Positions 1,371 through 9,786 of a stretch of DNA of 39,012 nucleotides are shown here, one piece after another. The stretch is from the IMG/VR virus record IMGVR_UViG_3300017989_000218, positions 1-39,012 of that record; one strand, written 5' to 3'. Within the stretch, counting starts at the first letter, position 1. Each line of letters starts with the position of its first letter. The position numbers and the translations under genes were made by a program. Source of the DNA: a virus. A model generated the notes under the pieces. The model did not search any database and was not told the origin of the DNA. It was given only the letters and a program-made list of their open reading frames with translations.

Positions 1371-1395
1371 ATCAATAATGGCAAAGGAGGACACT

Positions 1396-3726
1396 ATGCC
1401 AAAATACGGAAATAAGACTAGTTACATGGGGCGTAAAGCAAATCAAACTCTTACAGGGCAATCTAGATTTGCCACGGACACTGAAGCTGTAGCCGGAAGC
1501 AGGACTGATGTAGTAATTTCACCCTCTACCTTATCTGGCGCGGTGGATGATCTTATCCCAGATGCTTCTCTCACTGTAAAAGGTAAAGTTGAGCTGGCCA
1601 CGGTAGCTGAAACGACTACTGGTACTTCCGAAACTTTAGCTTGCACACCTAAAGGTGTAGCTGCTGTAGCTATTGCTGGCGCTCCTGATGCTACTGAAAC
1701 AAGCAAGGGTATTGTTGAGCTGGCCACGGATGCTGAAGCTGTAACGGGCACGGATACTGATAGAGTGATTGTATGTTCTTCTTTGACTGCAAGACTAGAA
1801 GCTCCTGGAGAAATTGGTGGCACAACTCCTGCTGCTGGAAACTTTACAAACCTTGATGCTGACGGAACAGGTGCTATTTCACTAGATGCTGACGCTGCAT
1901 CAAATTTTTCTGTTGCTGGGGCTGGCGTAGACTTAACCCTCGCTTCTGCTGCTGGTAGAGTAATAGTCAATGGTGAAGAAGCTGCCGATAACGCTATCAC
2001 TTTAGTAAGTGCGGCCGGTGGATTAGATGTTGATGTTGCAAAAAATTTAAGTCTAACATCTTCTGAAAATACAGCTGATTCTATTCAAATTACTTCTAGT
2101 GCAGGAGGAATTGATATAACTGCTGCCGGAGCAGCCGGAGAAGATATAGACATCACTTGTACAGCTGGTTCAGTAAATATCACTGCTGGTGAAAGTGCTG
2201 GCGATTCTGTAGTTATCACTTCTTCCGTAGGAGGAATTGACATTTCTGCTGCTGGTGCTGCTGCTGGTGAAGATATCGACATCACAGCAACCGGAAGTTC
2301 TATTAACTTAACATCTACAGAGAACGTAGCAAACGCCATTTATCTAAATGCTAGTGATGCTGCTGGCGGTATCGACATGGATTGCGGTACTGGTGGATTT
2401 GCTCTTGATGTAACAAGCGGAGCGGTAAGTATTGCTGCTGGTGCAGCTTCCGATATCACAATGGCTGGAGCTGGTATTGATCTCACGTTGGCAAGTGCAG
2501 CCGGACGAGTAATTGTTAATGGGGAAGAAGCTGCTGATAACGCCATTACTTTAGTAAGTGCTGCTGGAGGAATTGACGCTGATTGTGCTTTACAACTTTC
2601 ACTAGTCTCTTCTGAGGCTGCTGCTGATGCTATAGTTATAGATGCTAGTGACGCAGCCGGAGGAATTGACATTGATGATGGCGGTGGCGGAACAACTATT
2701 GATTCTGCTGCTGGCGTTAGCATCGATGCTGCTGCTGCTTCTAACTTTAGTGTTTCAGGTGCAGGCGTAGACTTAACACTCGCTTCTGCTGCTGGTAGAG
2801 TAATCATGAATGGCGAAGAAGCTGCTACTAATGCTCTAACACTTCTTAGTGCAGCCGGAGGAATTGATGTAAATGCTGCTCTAGAAATCAATATTGACTC
2901 TTCTGAGGCTGCTGTTGCTGATGCTATTCGCATCGTTGCTTCTGCTGCTGATGGAGGAATTGATGTTGATGCTGGAACAGGTGGAATAGCCATTGATTCT
3001 ACAGGTGCTATTTCAATTGCCGGAGCTGCTGCTTCTGACCTTACAGTCGGAGGAGCTGGAATTGATTTGACCTTAGAATCAACACTTGGACGTGTCATTG
3101 TTAATGCCGAAGAAGCTGCTGACAATGCAATTACGTTATTGTCTGCTGCTGGTGGTTTGGATGTAGACGTAGCACTTCAGTTATCACTAGTTTCTTCTGA
3201 AGTTGCCGCTGATGCTATCGAAATTAATGCATCGGCTGGAGGTATTGACGTAACCGCAGCAACAAATGATATAGATGTTACGGCCTCTGCTGGAAGCGTA
3301 AATATCAGTGCTGCTGAAGCTGTCGGAGATGCCATCGTAATTGATGCTTCGGATGCTGCCGGAGGTATAGATCTTACCTGTGGAACAGGTGGGATTTCTA
3401 TGGATTCTGGTTTGACAATGAATGTCACGGCTGTTGCAAATGGAGCAACTCCTTATACGGTACTTGGTAGTGACTATTTCATTACTACAGACACTACTGG
3501 GGGTGTTCTAACACTTACACTACCAGCAGCACCTGCGACTGGTAGAAGCCTTGTGATCTCAGATGGCGTAGGGCAGGCTGCGGCCAACAATATTACGATT
3601 GACGGGACGGCAAAGAACATTATTGTGGCGGGCGCAAGTGCCGTAACCTACACATTGAACGGGGCTTACGAGTCTTTATCACTTGTTTATGATGGGACGA
3701 GCTGGATCGGGAGGCTTGTGGCTTAA
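1396..3726 (+). CDS. Repeat-built tail fibre / stalk protein
   Basis: 776 residues. The start is the ATG at 1396, seven bases after AAAGGAGG; an in-frame ATG at 1378 lies before that site and is rejected. The N-terminal third has fibre motifs (KGIVELATDAEAVTGTD, GGTTPAAGNF). The centre is Ala/Gly/Asp/Ser-rich with recurring modules containing LTLASAAGRVIVNGEEA and SAAGGIDID, about 98 residues per repeat in the later copies. The C-terminal end (YFITTDTTGGVLTLTLPAAP...GTSWIGRLVA) looks like a trimeric fibre tip or capping domain. No catalytic depolymerase residues are recognisable. It is the first gene of the fibre operon and likely forms a long trimeric beta-rich shaft for receptor contact. 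Confidence 0.85.
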   Translation: MPKYGNKTSYMGRKANQTLTGQSRFATDTEAVAGSRTDVVISPSTLSGAVDDLIPDASLTVKGKVELATVAETTTGTSETLACTPKGVAAVAIAGAPDATETSKGIVELATDAEAVTGTDTDRVIVCSSLTARLEAPGEIGGTTPAAGNFTNLDADGTGAISLDADAASNFSVAGAGVDLTLASAAGRVIVNGEEAADNAITLVSAAGGLDVDVAKNLSLTSSENTADSIQITSSAGGIDITAAGAAGEDIDITCTAGSVNITAGESAGDSVVITSSVGGIDISAAGAAAGEDIDITATGSSINLTSTENVANAIYLNASDAAGGIDMDCGTGGFALDVTSGAVSIAAGAASDITMAGAGIDLTLASAAGRVIVNGEEAADNAITLVSAAGGIDADCALQLSLVSSEAAADAIVIDASDAAGGIDIDDGGGGTTIDSAAGVSIDAAAASNFSVSGAGVDLTLASAAGRVIMNGEEAATNALTLLSAAGGIDVNAALEINIDSSEAAVADAIRIVASAADGGIDVDAGTGGIAIDSTGAISIAGAAASDLTVGGAGIDLTLESTLGRVIVNAEEAADNAITLLSAAGGLDVDVALQLSLVSSEVAADAIEINASAGGIDVTAATNDIDVTASAGSVNISAAEAVGDAIVIDASDAAGGIDLTCGTGGISMDSGLTMNVTAVANGATPYTVLGSDYFITTDTTGGVLTLTLPAAPATGRSLVISDGVGQAAANNITIDGTAKNIIVAGASAVTYTLNGAYESLSLVYDGTSWIGRLVA
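1921..3130 (+). repeat. Intragenic fibre repeats
   Basis: Four related copies of the block encoding DLTLASAAGRVIVNGEEA-like sequence begin near 1921, 2467, 2761 and 3055. The last three are spaced 294 bases (98 codons) apart; the first gap is longer (about 546 bases) and holds diverged shorter units ending in GGIDI. Confidence 0.7.
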
Positions 3727-5161: not shown

Positions 5162-8100
5162 ATGTCCCAGGCAGGATTATTGGATATCGAGGCTAGTCAT
5201 CCGCAGATAGCTACTTCATTTACGACTGATTCCGGAACAGCTATTCCCCTTGCAAACAATCTTGAGATCTTAGGCGGTGATGGGATTGTAACGTCTGCTT
5301 CAGGCAAAACTATCACTGTTGCTTTAGACATTCCGATAACTGTTTCGTTTGGTGGAACTGGAAGGCAAACCTTGACTGATGGAGCTGTTCTTGTTGGTGA
5401 CGGAACAAGTCCAGTAGAAGAAATCTCTTTAACAAACGGACAGTTATTAATTGGATATACCAGTCGTTCTCCTGTAGCAGCGAATTTATTAGCTGGAACT
5501 GGCATAGCCATAACAAATGGTTCAGGATCAATAAGAGTATCTACCACAGGAAGTGTTCTATTAGCTGTAGATGCCGATTCAGGTAGTTGCACGCCAGTAG
5601 GAAATAGGTTAAACGTTAACGGAACATCATCACAAGGAATATCAACAAGTGCAGCAGGAAGTACTCTAACCTTAACGATTGCCGATGCGACTACTTCACA
5701 AAAGGGCGTACTGGAAACTGCTACGGATGCTGAAGCGGTAGCTGTTACAGCAACGGACAAGGCTGTTACTCCTAGCAACCTCGATAACGTCTTTGCCGAG
5801 CCTCCTGCTTTGGGAGGAACAACACCAAGCACAGGTAAACTTACCTATCTTGACCTAGTTGGTGCTGCTGCACCTTCTTATAGTGCAGGAAGGATTTACT
5901 ACGACAGTTCTACCGATACAATGAACTTCTACAATGCAGAGAGTGAAGTTGCTCTTAACATTGGAGAGGAGAACTGGATAAAGGTTCGTAACGAGACAGG
6001 TTCTACAATAACAAATGGACAAATCGTATACCTTAGCGGTACTTCTAGCGGATATCCTCTTGTTTCTCTAGCAAAAGCGGATTCAGATACAACATCCCAT
6101 ATGTTAGGTGTAGCTACACACGACATTGAGAATAATACGAATGGTTACATAACTACGTTCGGCTTAGTTAGAGGGCTTAATACAAGCGGTTTCTCTGGTG
6201 GAGACATCATATACCTATCCGATGCAACGGCAGGAGCAGCGACAGCGACAAAGCCTGATAATACGAGTCATATTGTACGTATTGGATATGTAGCCAACGC
6301 AGCAGCAGCTCCAGACGGAACATTTCTTGTAACGATCCATGATAACGGAGATATTTGGAACACTCATGGATATCGCAATACAATAAACGGATTTGAAGAT
6401 CCCAGCAATGATGCACAAATATCATTTGTCAACGGAACGAGAACATTTACTATAGAACCACAAGCTACAGAATTCCGCTATTGGAGTGAAGGTATACTTT
6501 ACGAAGTAACGGCAGCCGATGACATCGTGATAGCTGATACAGAAGGTCTACATTATATCTACTATGACGGTGATACCTTAACGGAGACAACTACATGGTC
6601 GGATGAAATCATCACGAAGTATGCTATCGTAGCAATCGTTCACTGGGATGCAACAAATAGCAAGCAAATATACTTAGCTGACGAGTTCTTGCATACAGCC
6701 GACATGGCAGGGATAACACATGAATACCTTCATGAGACAATAGGCTTTGCTTTAGAAACAGGTGGTGGTCTTACAGATATCCTTTCCGATCAGTCGGGAG
6801 ATTTAGATACTCATGCCGAGTTTGGGAATGAAGCTACGATTGCTTGGGATGAAGATGCTATGTTTTCTTATACAGCAAGAACGAGTACAAGCAACATAGC
6901 CGTATACTACAAAACTGGTGCAGAGGCTTCTAACATCTGGCGTATAGACGAAACAGCAAGCTTCGGTGTGTTGACTACAGGAACAGGACGTGCAGCATAC
7001 AATGAGCTTACCGGTGGTAATTGGCAGCAAACCGAGGTGACGAATAATAACTTTGTTCTTGCTCATGTGTTCACTTACAACGATAGCACAAGGAAGTTCG
7101 GTGTCGTACAAGGAGAGAATGAATATGCGAATATAAGTGCTGCAAGAGATGGTGCAGAAGTGGAAATTGCCTCTATTACCTTAGCAGGCGCACCTGTAGC
7201 AGAGATTAAGTTCATCGGAACAATCATCTATCAAACATCTGACGGTTACGCTAACGCTGTAAAGTCAAGGATACGCACTACAAATACAGGTGATGACTAC
7301 ATTGACTTGCGAGATTTCGGAATAACACGAGGTGGTGTCTCTGGAACGCTTACAGACCATGGTGCTTTGACTGGACTTGGCGATGACGATCATTGCTTTT
7401 CTGAGGACACAGAACTTCTGACAGAAAACGGATTTATCCCATATGAAGAAATAGAAAAGGGTCAAAAAGCTCTTACGCTTAATCTTGAGACAAATGAACT
7501 AGAATATAATGAGATTCAAGAAAAGTATGTGTATGATTCTTTCGATGAGATGATAAGCTTCAAGAATAGATATGGAGAAATTCTTGTTACTCCTCAGCAC
7601 AAGATGATTTATCGTAATACATGCAAAGAAGAGAAAAATCCAAAATCAAAATGGCTTACTTGTACAGCCGAAGAAGCTTTAGAAAAATCTGTCTTCGAGA
7701 TTCCTGTTAGCGGACATCTTGAAGGAGAAACATTTGATAAGCCTTTAGAATTTTTTGAACTTCTCGGACTAATAATTTCAGAAGGAAATTTCATTGCTCC
7801 AAAAGAAGGTGGATATGGAATAAGAATTTATCAAAAAGAAAACCAAGCTGCTTATATAGAAAATATTCTTAAGAAACTAGATGTTCCATATACAAGACGG
7901 ACAGGGCAAACAGAAGTTTTTTATATAAGAAGTGCATGGGCTAGAGAAAACATTAGAACCTGGATAACAGAGAAGAGAATTTCTGATAAACTCATGAAAT
8001 TGCGAGGAAAGCAATTTAGAGCGTTCCTATCAGGACTTATTTATGGAGATGGAAGCAAACGTTCTACTATTGAGATAACAAAAGAAGACGCTTGCAGAAG

Positions 8101-9091
8101 GCTTATAGATAATTTCGATGGAAAGGTAAGGTATTCTTATCATTCTGGAGATGTGGTTCTTAAAGATCAGTTATGCCAGCTTTGTACTTTTAACGGATTG
8201 AAGGCATACGATTACTATCGTGAAGGTGGCTTTAAAAACGGTTGCTGGACAATCAACATAACCAACAAAGAAAAGGTTCTTTTTGGCAAAGGAACAAAAA
8301 ATCGTGTTGATTATTCTGGAGACGTTTGGTGTGTGTCCGTACCTAACAAGACTTTGGTTCTTCGTAGAAATGGATTCATATTCATAGCAGGGAATACTCA
8401 ATATTTACTAGCTGACGGAACACGAGCCTTAGCAGGGGCTTGGGATATGGGGAGTCAGGCGGTAACGAATGCTAATATTGATAGCGGAGCTATAACAGGC
8501 ACTACGATTGATAATTGTACTATTGGAGGCTCTACACCAGCAGCAGGAACATTTAGCACTGTAACAGACACAAGCAGAACACAACATGCCGTTGCTATAT
8601 ACGGAGCTAGTGGCGTACTTAGTGAAGTTACCCCATTGACGGATGGGCAGCTTGTTATAGGTTCTACAGGAAATGCACCAGTAGGGGCTACGCTAACGGC
8701 TGGTGCAGGAATTTCCGTGACGAATGCAAGTGGCTCAATCACAATCACTAACATAGGCGGTTCGTTTTCTTGGACAACCGTTACTGGTGCTACGCAAAGT
8801 CTTGTAGCTCAGAACGGTTATGTAGGCTCGAGGGCTACTGATATAACTTATACTCTTCCAGCAACAGCTAGTGTTGGAGATACGTTTATCATAACAAATA
8901 TTGGAGTTGGCAAGACTATAATAAATCAAAATGCATCACAGCTTATAAATTATACGGCATCATCAACAACTACAGGTGTTGGTGGTTCGCTAAGTGCTGT
9001 AGAGCAATTTGCTTCTATCCAAATAGTTTGTAGCGTGACCAATACAACATTCAATGTAACTTCATCGACAGGAAACTGGACTGTTGTGTAG
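5162..9091 (+). CDS. Large tail fibre protein interrupted by an in-frame intein
   Basis: 1309 residues as translated, about 975 after splicing; AAAGGAGGGGTAA precedes the ATG. Fibre modules appear in order: an N-terminal virion-anchoring region with LTNGQLLIGYTSRSPVA (about 90-105), KGVLETATDAEAV (about 180), a beta region with TGSTITNGQIVYLSG and GVATHDIENN (about 280-400), then TDHGALTGLGDDDH. An intein covers residues 745-1078. The fibre resumes with TQYLLADGTRALAGAWDMG, a second copy of the LTDGQLVIGSTGNAPVG module (about 1160), and a C-terminal beta domain ending in SSTGNWTVV. It probably binds the host surface. Expression as a working fibre should need protein splicing. Confidence 0.9.
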   Translation: MSQAGLLDIEASHPQIATSFTTDSGTAIPLANNLEILGGDGIVTSASGKTITVALDIPITVSFGGTGRQTLTDGAVLVGDGTSPVEEISLTNGQLLIGYTSRSPVAANLLAGTGIAITNGSGSIRVSTTGSVLLAVDADSGSCTPVGNRLNVNGTSSQGISTSAAGSTLTLTIADATTSQKGVLETATDAEAVAVTATDKAVTPSNLDNVFAEPPALGGTTPSTGKLTYLDLVGAAAPSYSAGRIYYDSSTDTMNFYNAESEVALNIGEENWIKVRNETGSTITNGQIVYLSGTSSGYPLVSLAKADSDTTSHMLGVATHDIENNTNGYITTFGLVRGLNTSGFSGGDIIYLSDATAGAATATKPDNTSHIVRIGYVANAAAAPDGTFLVTIHDNGDIWNTHGYRNTINGFEDPSNDAQISFVNGTRTFTIEPQATEFRYWSEGILYEVTAADDIVIADTEGLHYIYYDGDTLTETTTWSDEIITKYAIVAIVHWDATNSKQIYLADEFLHTADMAGITHEYLHETIGFALETGGGLTDILSDQSGDLDTHAEFGNEATIAWDEDAMFSYTARTSTSNIAVYYKTGAEASNIWRIDETASFGVLTTGTGRAAYNELTGGNWQQTEVTNNNFVLAHVFTYNDSTRKFGVVQGENEYANISAARDGAEVEIASITLAGAPVAEIKFIGTIIYQTSDGYANAVKSRIRTTNTGDDYIDLRDFGITRGGVSGTLTDHGALTGLGDDDHCFSEDTELLTENGFIPYEEIEKGQKALTLNLETNELEYNEIQEKYVYDSFDEMISFKNRYGEILVTPQHKMIYRNTCKEEKNPKSKWLTCTAEEALEKSVFEIPVSGHLEGETFDKPLEFFELLGLIISEGNFIAPKEGGYGIRIYQKENQAAYIENILKKLDVPYTRRTGQTEVFYIRSAWARENIRTWITEKRISDKLMKLRGKQFRAFLSGLIYGDGSKRSTIEITKEDACRRLIDNFDGKVRYSYHSGDVVLKDQLCQLCTFNGLKAYDYYREGGFKNGCWTINITNKEKVLFGKGTKNRVDYSGDVWCVSVPNKTLVLRRNGFIFIAGNTQYLLADGTRALAGAWDMGSQAVTNANIDSGAITGTTIDNCTIGGSTPAAGTFSTVTDTSRTQHAVAIYGASGVLSEVTPLTDGQLVIGSTGNAPVGATLTAGAGISVTNASGSITITNIGGSFSWTTVTGATQSLVAQNGYVGSRATDITYTLPATASVGDTFIITNIGVGKTIINQNASQLINYTASSTTTGVGGSLSAVEQFASIQIVCSVTNTTFNVTSSTGNWTVV
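7394..8395 (+). mobile_element. Intein with LAGLIDADG-type homing endonuclease in the fibre gene
   Basis: 334 codons in frame within the fibre gene. The first residue is Cys (CFSEDTELLTENGF, block A). Block B is seen as EILVTPQHKMIYR with the conserved Thr and His. The endonuclease domain holds two LAGLIDADG-like helices (FELLGLIISEGN and FLSGLIYGDGSK). The C-terminal splicing blocks are GDVWCVSVPNKTLVLRRNG and FIFIAGN, followed by Thr as the +1 extein residue. The penultimate residue is Gly, not the common His, as in a subset of inteins. Removing it joins DDDH to TQYLL, a motif known from many phage fibres. All residues needed for Cys/Asn/Thr chemistry are present, so it is likely active. 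Confidence 0.93.
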
Positions 9092-9150
9092 CAGGGGTTG
9101 CAGTAATTGGAACGGTAAATTATACTTTACATGTAATAGTGAGGTATAAA

Positions 9151-9786
9151 ATGAGAAAATGCAAGATATGTAACGAAGAAAAAGAACTAGAAGATTTTGT
9201 TAAAGAAGGTAAATGGCATCGACATAAATGCAAAGAATGTAAAAATGCTGAAAGAAGAACAGGACTCCCAAGAGGAAGTTTTAAAAAGGGTCATATACCT
9301 TGGAACAAAGGTAGAAAGCATAGCGAAGAGACTAAAAAGAAACTTAGCTTATTTTTTAAAGGTAAGCACACATCGCCAAAAACGGAATTTAAAAAAGAAC
9401 AAATTCCTTGGAATAAAGGCATATATAAGGACATAAATGCGAGAAATGGATCGAGACACAAAAAATGGCGACTTGATATACTTCAAAGAGATGGAAATAA
9501 ATGTACTGAGTGTGGAAGCTTAAAAAGACTACAAGCACATCACATAGTGCCATGGGAAGAAAATGAAAGTCTTAGATTTGATGTAAATAACGGAAAAACT
9601 CTATGCATAGTATGCCATGCAAAGTTAGAAGGTTTTAAAAAAGGACAACAAGCATGGAACAAAGGGATGAAATGTCCTTGGGGGAAAAACTCAGGAAGTT
9701 TTAAAAAAGGACACGTACCCACTTGCAAGGGAAGAAAATTTCCCGATAGGATACCTTGGAATAAGGGATTAAAAAAGGAGAAGTAA
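9151..9786 (+). CDS. Free-standing HNH homing endonuclease with NUMOD3 repeats
   Basis: 211 residues. The start is the ATG at 9151 with GTGAGG six bases upstream; a GTG at 9139 would add four residues. The N-terminus has a zinc-knuckle-like CKICNEEKELEDF...CKECKNAE. NUMOD3-type DNA-binding repeats (GHIPWNKGRKHSEETKKKL, EQIPWNKGI, QQAWNKGMK, GHVPTCKGRKF, RIPWNKGLKK) flank a central HNH core: CTECGSLKRLQAHHIVPW...CIVCHAKLEG (about 118-155). It sits between two fibre genes, and its stop overlaps the next start by one base, so its 3' end supplies the Shine-Dalgarno site of the 9786 gene. It is probably a mobile gene targeting intron-less or element-less relatives of the fibre region. Confidence 0.9.
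   Translation: MRKCKICNEEKELEDFVKEGKWHRHKCKECKNAERRTGLPRGSFKKGHIPWNKGRKHSEETKKKLSLFFKGKHTSPKTEFKKEQIPWNKGIYKDINARNGSRHKKWRLDILQRDGNKCTECGSLKRLQAHHIVPWEENESLRFDVNNGKTLCIVCHAKLEGFKKGQQAWNKGMKCPWGKNSGSFKKGHVPTCKGRKFPDRIPWNKGLKKEK

Follow-up and report, generated by a model that had tools for sequence, protein, structure and literature searches.

A predicted LAGLIDADG homing intein in a phage tail-fibre gene, with a close copy in the same motif of an unrelated fibre

What is the insert that interrupts a tail-fibre gene of an uncultured phage, and by what route could it have come to lie there? The window (the whole 39,012-nucleotide stretch of viral DNA analysed here) carries on its + strand a tail-fibre ORF of 1309 amino acids (5162-9091) that is open over its whole length, and the insert occupies residues 745-1078 of it (7394-8395, + strand; 1002 nt) with the frame uninterrupted. 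It begins with Cys (CFSEDTELLTENG), ends with RRNGFIFIAGN and is followed by Thr, so that the junction reads GLGDDDH/TQYLLADGTR. Upstream lies a 744-residue N-extein (5162-7393, + strand) that ends in TDHGALTGLGDDDH and is defined by the ORF and by the intein-free homologues L275 and L020 described below, and downstream a 231-residue C-extein (8396-9088, + strand) that starts with TQYLLADGTRALAGAWDMGSQ, has homologues in other fibres and matches the tail-fibre PHROG phrog_31660 (E 2.2e-5). The GC content of the insert is 35% versus 44% in the exteins. An earlier note on this DNA, made from its letters, had taken the host gene for a fibre, and the PHROG match and the intein-free fibre homologues bear this out; an adjacent ORF (1378-3726) has matches among families of tail fibres and collars, and from its position and repeats we infer that the interrupted fibre is receptor-binding.

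Taken together, the sequence and the predicted structure indicate that the insert is apparently a functional intein of the class 1 type with a LAGLIDADG homing endonuclease. The N-terminal part of the Hint splicing domain (residues 1-114; 7394-7735, + strand), bounded by the endonuclease match described below, contains block A (CFSEDTELLTENG) with Cys1, where class 1 inteins have Cys or Ser, and block B (VTPQHKM) with the class 1 Thr-x-x-His as T66-P-Q-H69; C1, T66 and H69 are invariant in seven aligned inteins, and C1 and H69 are still so in 39 sequences. Blocks F and G form the C-terminal Hint part (VWCVSVPNKTLVLRRNGFIFIAGN; 8273-8395, + strand), with conserved C313, R324, R325, G333 and N334, and here the terminal Asn is followed by Thr, one of the three +1 residues (Cys, Ser or Thr) expected of the class. 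The penultimate His, usual in class 1 inteins but not obligatory, is replaced by Gly333. Fibres homologous to the host protein but lacking the insert exist as well, L275, L020 and others being contiguous at the site. A class 3 assignment was considered and is ruled out by Cys1; moreover, the Trp-Cys-Thr triplet is missing, the block B and G positions being Met71 and Ala332.

Among profile families, TIGR01445, the NCBIfam model for intein N-termini, clears its cut-off on the insert (25.2 bits, 24.5 required; E 2.4e-5), and the Pfam models LAGLIDADG_3 and Intein_splicing both score below theirs. By themselves these families would leave the identity of the insert somewhat doubtful, a doubt that the modelled structure removes. 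An AlphaFold2 model of the intein, built with 39 sequences, has a pLDDT of 93.9 and a pTM of 0.91, and the best 15 Foldseek matches in the PDB are all intein or intein-endonuclease entries, with PI-SceI at the top (E 1.6e-14). In VIA-align comparisons the model superposes on the TliVMA intein over residues 1-334 (Z 24.4, rmsd 4.8, 299 residues); PDB inteins thus reach Z 24 over the full length, and those consisting of a Hint domain only reach Z 15-19. Residues 114-293 match I-DmoI (Z about 15), which together with helices 118-130 and 205-219 delimits a LAGLIDADG endonuclease domain at residues 115-293 (7736-8272, + strand). In the model each of the two characteristic helices ends in an acidic residue plus Gly: the first (7745-7786, + strand), recognised from sequence and model and ending LLGLIISEG, supplies Glu130 (LIISE130G), and the second (8006-8053, + strand), ending FLSGLIYGDG, supplies Asp219 (LIYGD219G), with D219 and G220 invariant in 39 sequences. 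The predicted fold is therefore that of a Hint splicing domain into which a LAGLIDADG endonuclease is inserted, and its nearest matches are PI-SceI and the VMA inteins. It shares that architecture with PI-SceI and TliVMA, but differs from them in host protein and target, is only 10-18% identical, and its model, unlike theirs, does not resolve a separate DNA-recognition region. The earlier note had proposed a complete 334-residue LAGLIDADG intein at 7394-8395, and its boundaries prove exact, given the open frame, the TIGR01445 match, the structural matches and a precise empty site.

This empty site is seen most directly in L275 (IMGVR_UViG_3300017989_000452, a contig labelled L113 in our site alignment) and in L020, two intein-free fibres that are respectively 72% and 69% identical to the N-extein (residues 410-744 and 395-744) and in which DDDH is followed directly by TQYLLADG. 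Since blastn aligns window 6389-7393 with L275 4001-5008 and window 8394-8451 with L275 5007-5064, intein-free fibres join position 7393 to 8396 and the insert is exactly 1002 bp. We further gathered 109 non-redundant uninterrupted DDDHTQYLL sites from viral contigs, from which it follows that the insertion site is not a matter of chance. The conserved stretch in these sites runs from -13 to +9 of the junction, with conservation dropping on either side, and the strongly conserved positions are D-13, H-12, G-11, L-9, G-7, L-6, G+7 and R+9, all of them outside the DDDHTQYLL for which the scan selected. The profile thus puts the intein in the middle of the best-conserved segment of fibres that otherwise vary greatly, in agreement with the earlier note, which had put the junction between His and Thr of a motif common to many fibres. 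Inteins in general occupy the most conserved part of their host proteins (PMC2814812). Searching the PDB sequences with the region around the motif gave no match.

The search that the note had proposed, for same-site inteins and intein-free homologues in viral fibres, turned up one further intein in addition to the uninterrupted fibres. It lies in L001 (IMG/VR contig 3300044676_004015), is 92% identical, and sits in the same DDDH/TQYLL motif of a different fibre. The N-exteins of the window and L001 have no detectable similarity upstream of their last 14 residues (best BLASTP E 1.0), and each has its own homologues that reach DDDH without an intein (L020, L275, L083, L051 and others for the window; L080, L105, L101, L097 and others for L001), the majority of members in both fibre families being intein-free. 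At the DNA level, a blastn comparison of the window with the L001 locus (7 kb) yields a single match, 7352-8488, and similarity stops about 42 bp upstream and about 93 bp downstream of the insert. These ends mark the two halves of the conserved site, the upstream one (7352-7393, + strand; TDHGALTGLGDDDH) identical to L001 at 33 of 42 positions and delimited also by the 109 empty sites, and the downstream one (8396-8488, + strand) covering 31 codons. The remaining proteins that the two phages share, terminase and portal among them, have identities of only about 24-35%. Unrelated N-exteins with intein-free homologues of their own, a single DNA match and such distant shared proteins together argue that the intein moved horizontally, and the suggestion that it might have a route into unrelated fibre genes thereby gains a concrete second example.

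Comparison of the two inteins gives a dS of 0.96 and a dN of 0.048, a ratio of 0.051 (0.067 in the endonuclease region), which points to strong purifying selection and to maintenance of both the splicing and the endonuclease parts. Differences affect 0.54 of synonymous sites in the intein versus 0.76 in the 135-bp flanks, an excess that comes from about 31 synonymous flank sites near saturation; with moderate strength this fits arrival of the intein after the sites had diverged. Flank similarity between the window and L001 does not exceed that between L001 and the intein-free L275, and no co-conversion tract is therefore visible. The 12 bp just upstream of the insert (GATGACGATCAT) are identical at both intein-bearing sites and present in 4 of the 109 empty ones, which hints at a recognition sequence, although a coincidence of this kind has a chance of about 1 in 27 and we give it no weight.

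We consider it highly probable that this is a homing intein of the class 1 type that splices itself out and spreads among unrelated fibre genes through the DDDH/TQYLL motif, a reading based on sequence comparison and the predicted structure. The fibre would be made as a precursor from which the intein excises itself while ligating DDDH to TQYLL, restoring a normal fibre, as its residues and the intein-free homologues suggest. The endonuclease would then cut intein-free DDDH/TQYLL DNA in the fibre genes of co-infecting phages, and repair of the cut site would copy the intein into them; because the motif recurs in many otherwise unrelated fibre families, the intein could move between genes that are not homologous. 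Two cases display this pattern of movement, and homing is its putative mechanism. The best-surviving alternative dispenses with homing altogether and has the intein carried in a small DDDH-intein-TQYLL module by ordinary shuffling of fibre genes at a natural exchange point. Fibres are indeed mosaic at the motif, as the fibre at L275 4001-5185 looks like a hybrid there, its N-extein resembling the window's (72%) and the first 59 residues of its C-extein being 83% identical to L001's, and the flanks similar over 42 and 93 bp are what a carried module would leave. However, carriage of this kind needs two crossovers, one within each of these short flanks, and fits poorly with flanks that diverge more than the intein at synonymous sites and with purifying selection on an endonuclease that passive carriage does not require. 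We regard it as unlikely and favour homing over passive shuffling.

Other features of the fibre region deserve mention in their own right. Both ends of the window's fibre (5162-5560 and 8570-9088) are about 48-57% identical to a short separate tail gene that adjoins the fibre in L001 (3184-3936) and in L275, and this likeness suggests that fibre genes here may be built by fusing repeated modules. Between the intein-bearing gene and the next fibre-like ORF sits a free-standing HNH endonuclease gene with a NUMOD3 motif and a GTG start (9139-9786, + strand), which may be a second homing element of the region; the stretches that we inspected in L275 and L020, both intein-free relatives, showed no comparable gene. 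The window gave no matches in Rfam and tRNA scans, so that it contains no known group I intron.

A comparison with related phage inteins bears on how the fibre intein might splice. The +1 Thr and the penultimate Gly to which the earlier note drew attention are both present, but the Gly is not the oddity it was taken for: among 70 non-redundant relatives 66 have Gly at this position and two have His, and the +1 residue of 69 relatives (the window's left out) is Ser in 30, Thr in 20 and Cys in 19. Phage class 1 LAGLIDADG inteins ending Gly-Asn are of the same length and share with the window intein blocks A, B, F and G, the block F Cys, an RRN near the end and the LAGLIDADG domain, at 23-25% identity over the full length. 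Examples are found in mycobacteriophage DNA methylases, a Staphylococcus phage nicotinamide phosphoribosyltransferase and an Escherichia phage DNA polymerase, that is, in enzymes, whereas the window's host is a tail fibre. Another phage class 1 intein with penultimate Gly, that of mycobacteriophage Bethlehem, resides in a putative metallophosphoesterase/recombination directionality factor (RDF). Kelley and colleagues found that with its native penultimate Gly it splices completely, and that a Gly-to-His mutant accumulates precursor and takes more than 5 hours to reach about half (PMC5050341). Slow or conditional splicing as a control of how the fibre matures and binds its host, in line with what the note had surmised, could appeal to residues that are non-canonical by the textbook and to the conditional splicing that PMC6195587 reports for a mycobacterial DnaB intein; the habitual Gly of the relatives, their frequent +1 Thr, the complete splicing of the RDF intein and the sporadic presence of the intein in both fibre families, which suggests a dispensable parasite, make it very improbable, and we found no evidence of a tie between host binding and splicing. 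Still less credible is a decayed intein, or a bacterial intein-like (BIL) Hint domain for fibre processing, to which the sub-threshold Pfam Intein_splicing match might point, considering the intact set of expected catalytic positions, the open frame, the dN/dS of 0.05, the endonuclease domain, the terminal Asn and the +1 nucleophile.

In a tree of the related inteins, the window and L001 copies form their own well-supported branch. Calcineurin-like phosphoesterase inteins at GH/TH (L145, L147 and L177), likewise inserted between His and Thr, were considered as the source of a jump into fibres and rejected, as the tree groups the fibre inteins with L144 and L146 instead, albeit weakly (SH-aLRT 80). 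Common host families of 57 related phage inteins are DNA methyltransferases, portal proteins, DNA polymerases, primase/helicases, reductases, phosphoesterases, head-morphogenesis proteins and terminases, and of the 25 families that each search listed, none is a tail-fibre family. Inteins known from virion proteins, a portal (PMC5050341) and a minor head protein (PMC7468147, PMC11162368), have structural hosts like the window's, but none of these is a fibre; portal and head-morphogenesis hosts recur among the relatives here. In a cryoconite survey, none of 36 variable tail-fibre/collar/protein entries was flagged as an intein (PMC7468147). Two side observations concern other members of the set. 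In L202 (4001-4981) the C-extein of an intein-bearing ORF soon has another intein-like start (CYVEGTEVLTKRG), and this ORF may hold two inteins close together. The insert in the Mycobacterium phage Bobi methylase (L139 1501-2481) and its match in phage ShiLan look like ordinary LAGLIDADG-type inteins; the 'ShiLan domain' has been described as neither intein nor intron (PMC11855218).

How common is the arrangement? In our scans of viral contigs L001 is the sole real case besides the window, versus at least 120 stretches with the uninterrupted motif. The DDDHCxxxDT scan gave four matches of which one is real, the NTQYLLxDG scan 11 of which one is real, and DDDHCxxxDT in 84,980 GTDB genomes gave 52 matches, all unrelated reading frames, and no intein; such scans are blind to inteins with other first residues or in diverged motifs. 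The known cases at the DDDH/TQYLL site are thus two, both from phages that have not been isolated, and the literature searched yielded no earlier report of an intein in a tail fibre.

Phage homing inteins are a known kind of element, and what is unusual here is the host gene and the motif-based address. An intein is usually confined to a single orthologous gene that evolves slowly; the address used here is a short motif that recurs across otherwise non-homologous fibre families, and the close copy in the same motif of an unrelated fibre suggests that the intein spreads through host-recognition genes by way of it. Tail fibres would be added to the known host proteins of inteins, and an element parasitic on host-recognition genes could pass between phages with hardly anything else in common. 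It is conceivable, though we think it quite doubtful, that cutting at a motif where fibre modules are exchanged would also provoke recombination between unrelated fibre genes and so shuffle host-range modules as a by-product of homing. Whether homing endonucleases can exploit, or even promote, the modular exchange of receptor-binding genes is a question that this locus makes concretely testable.
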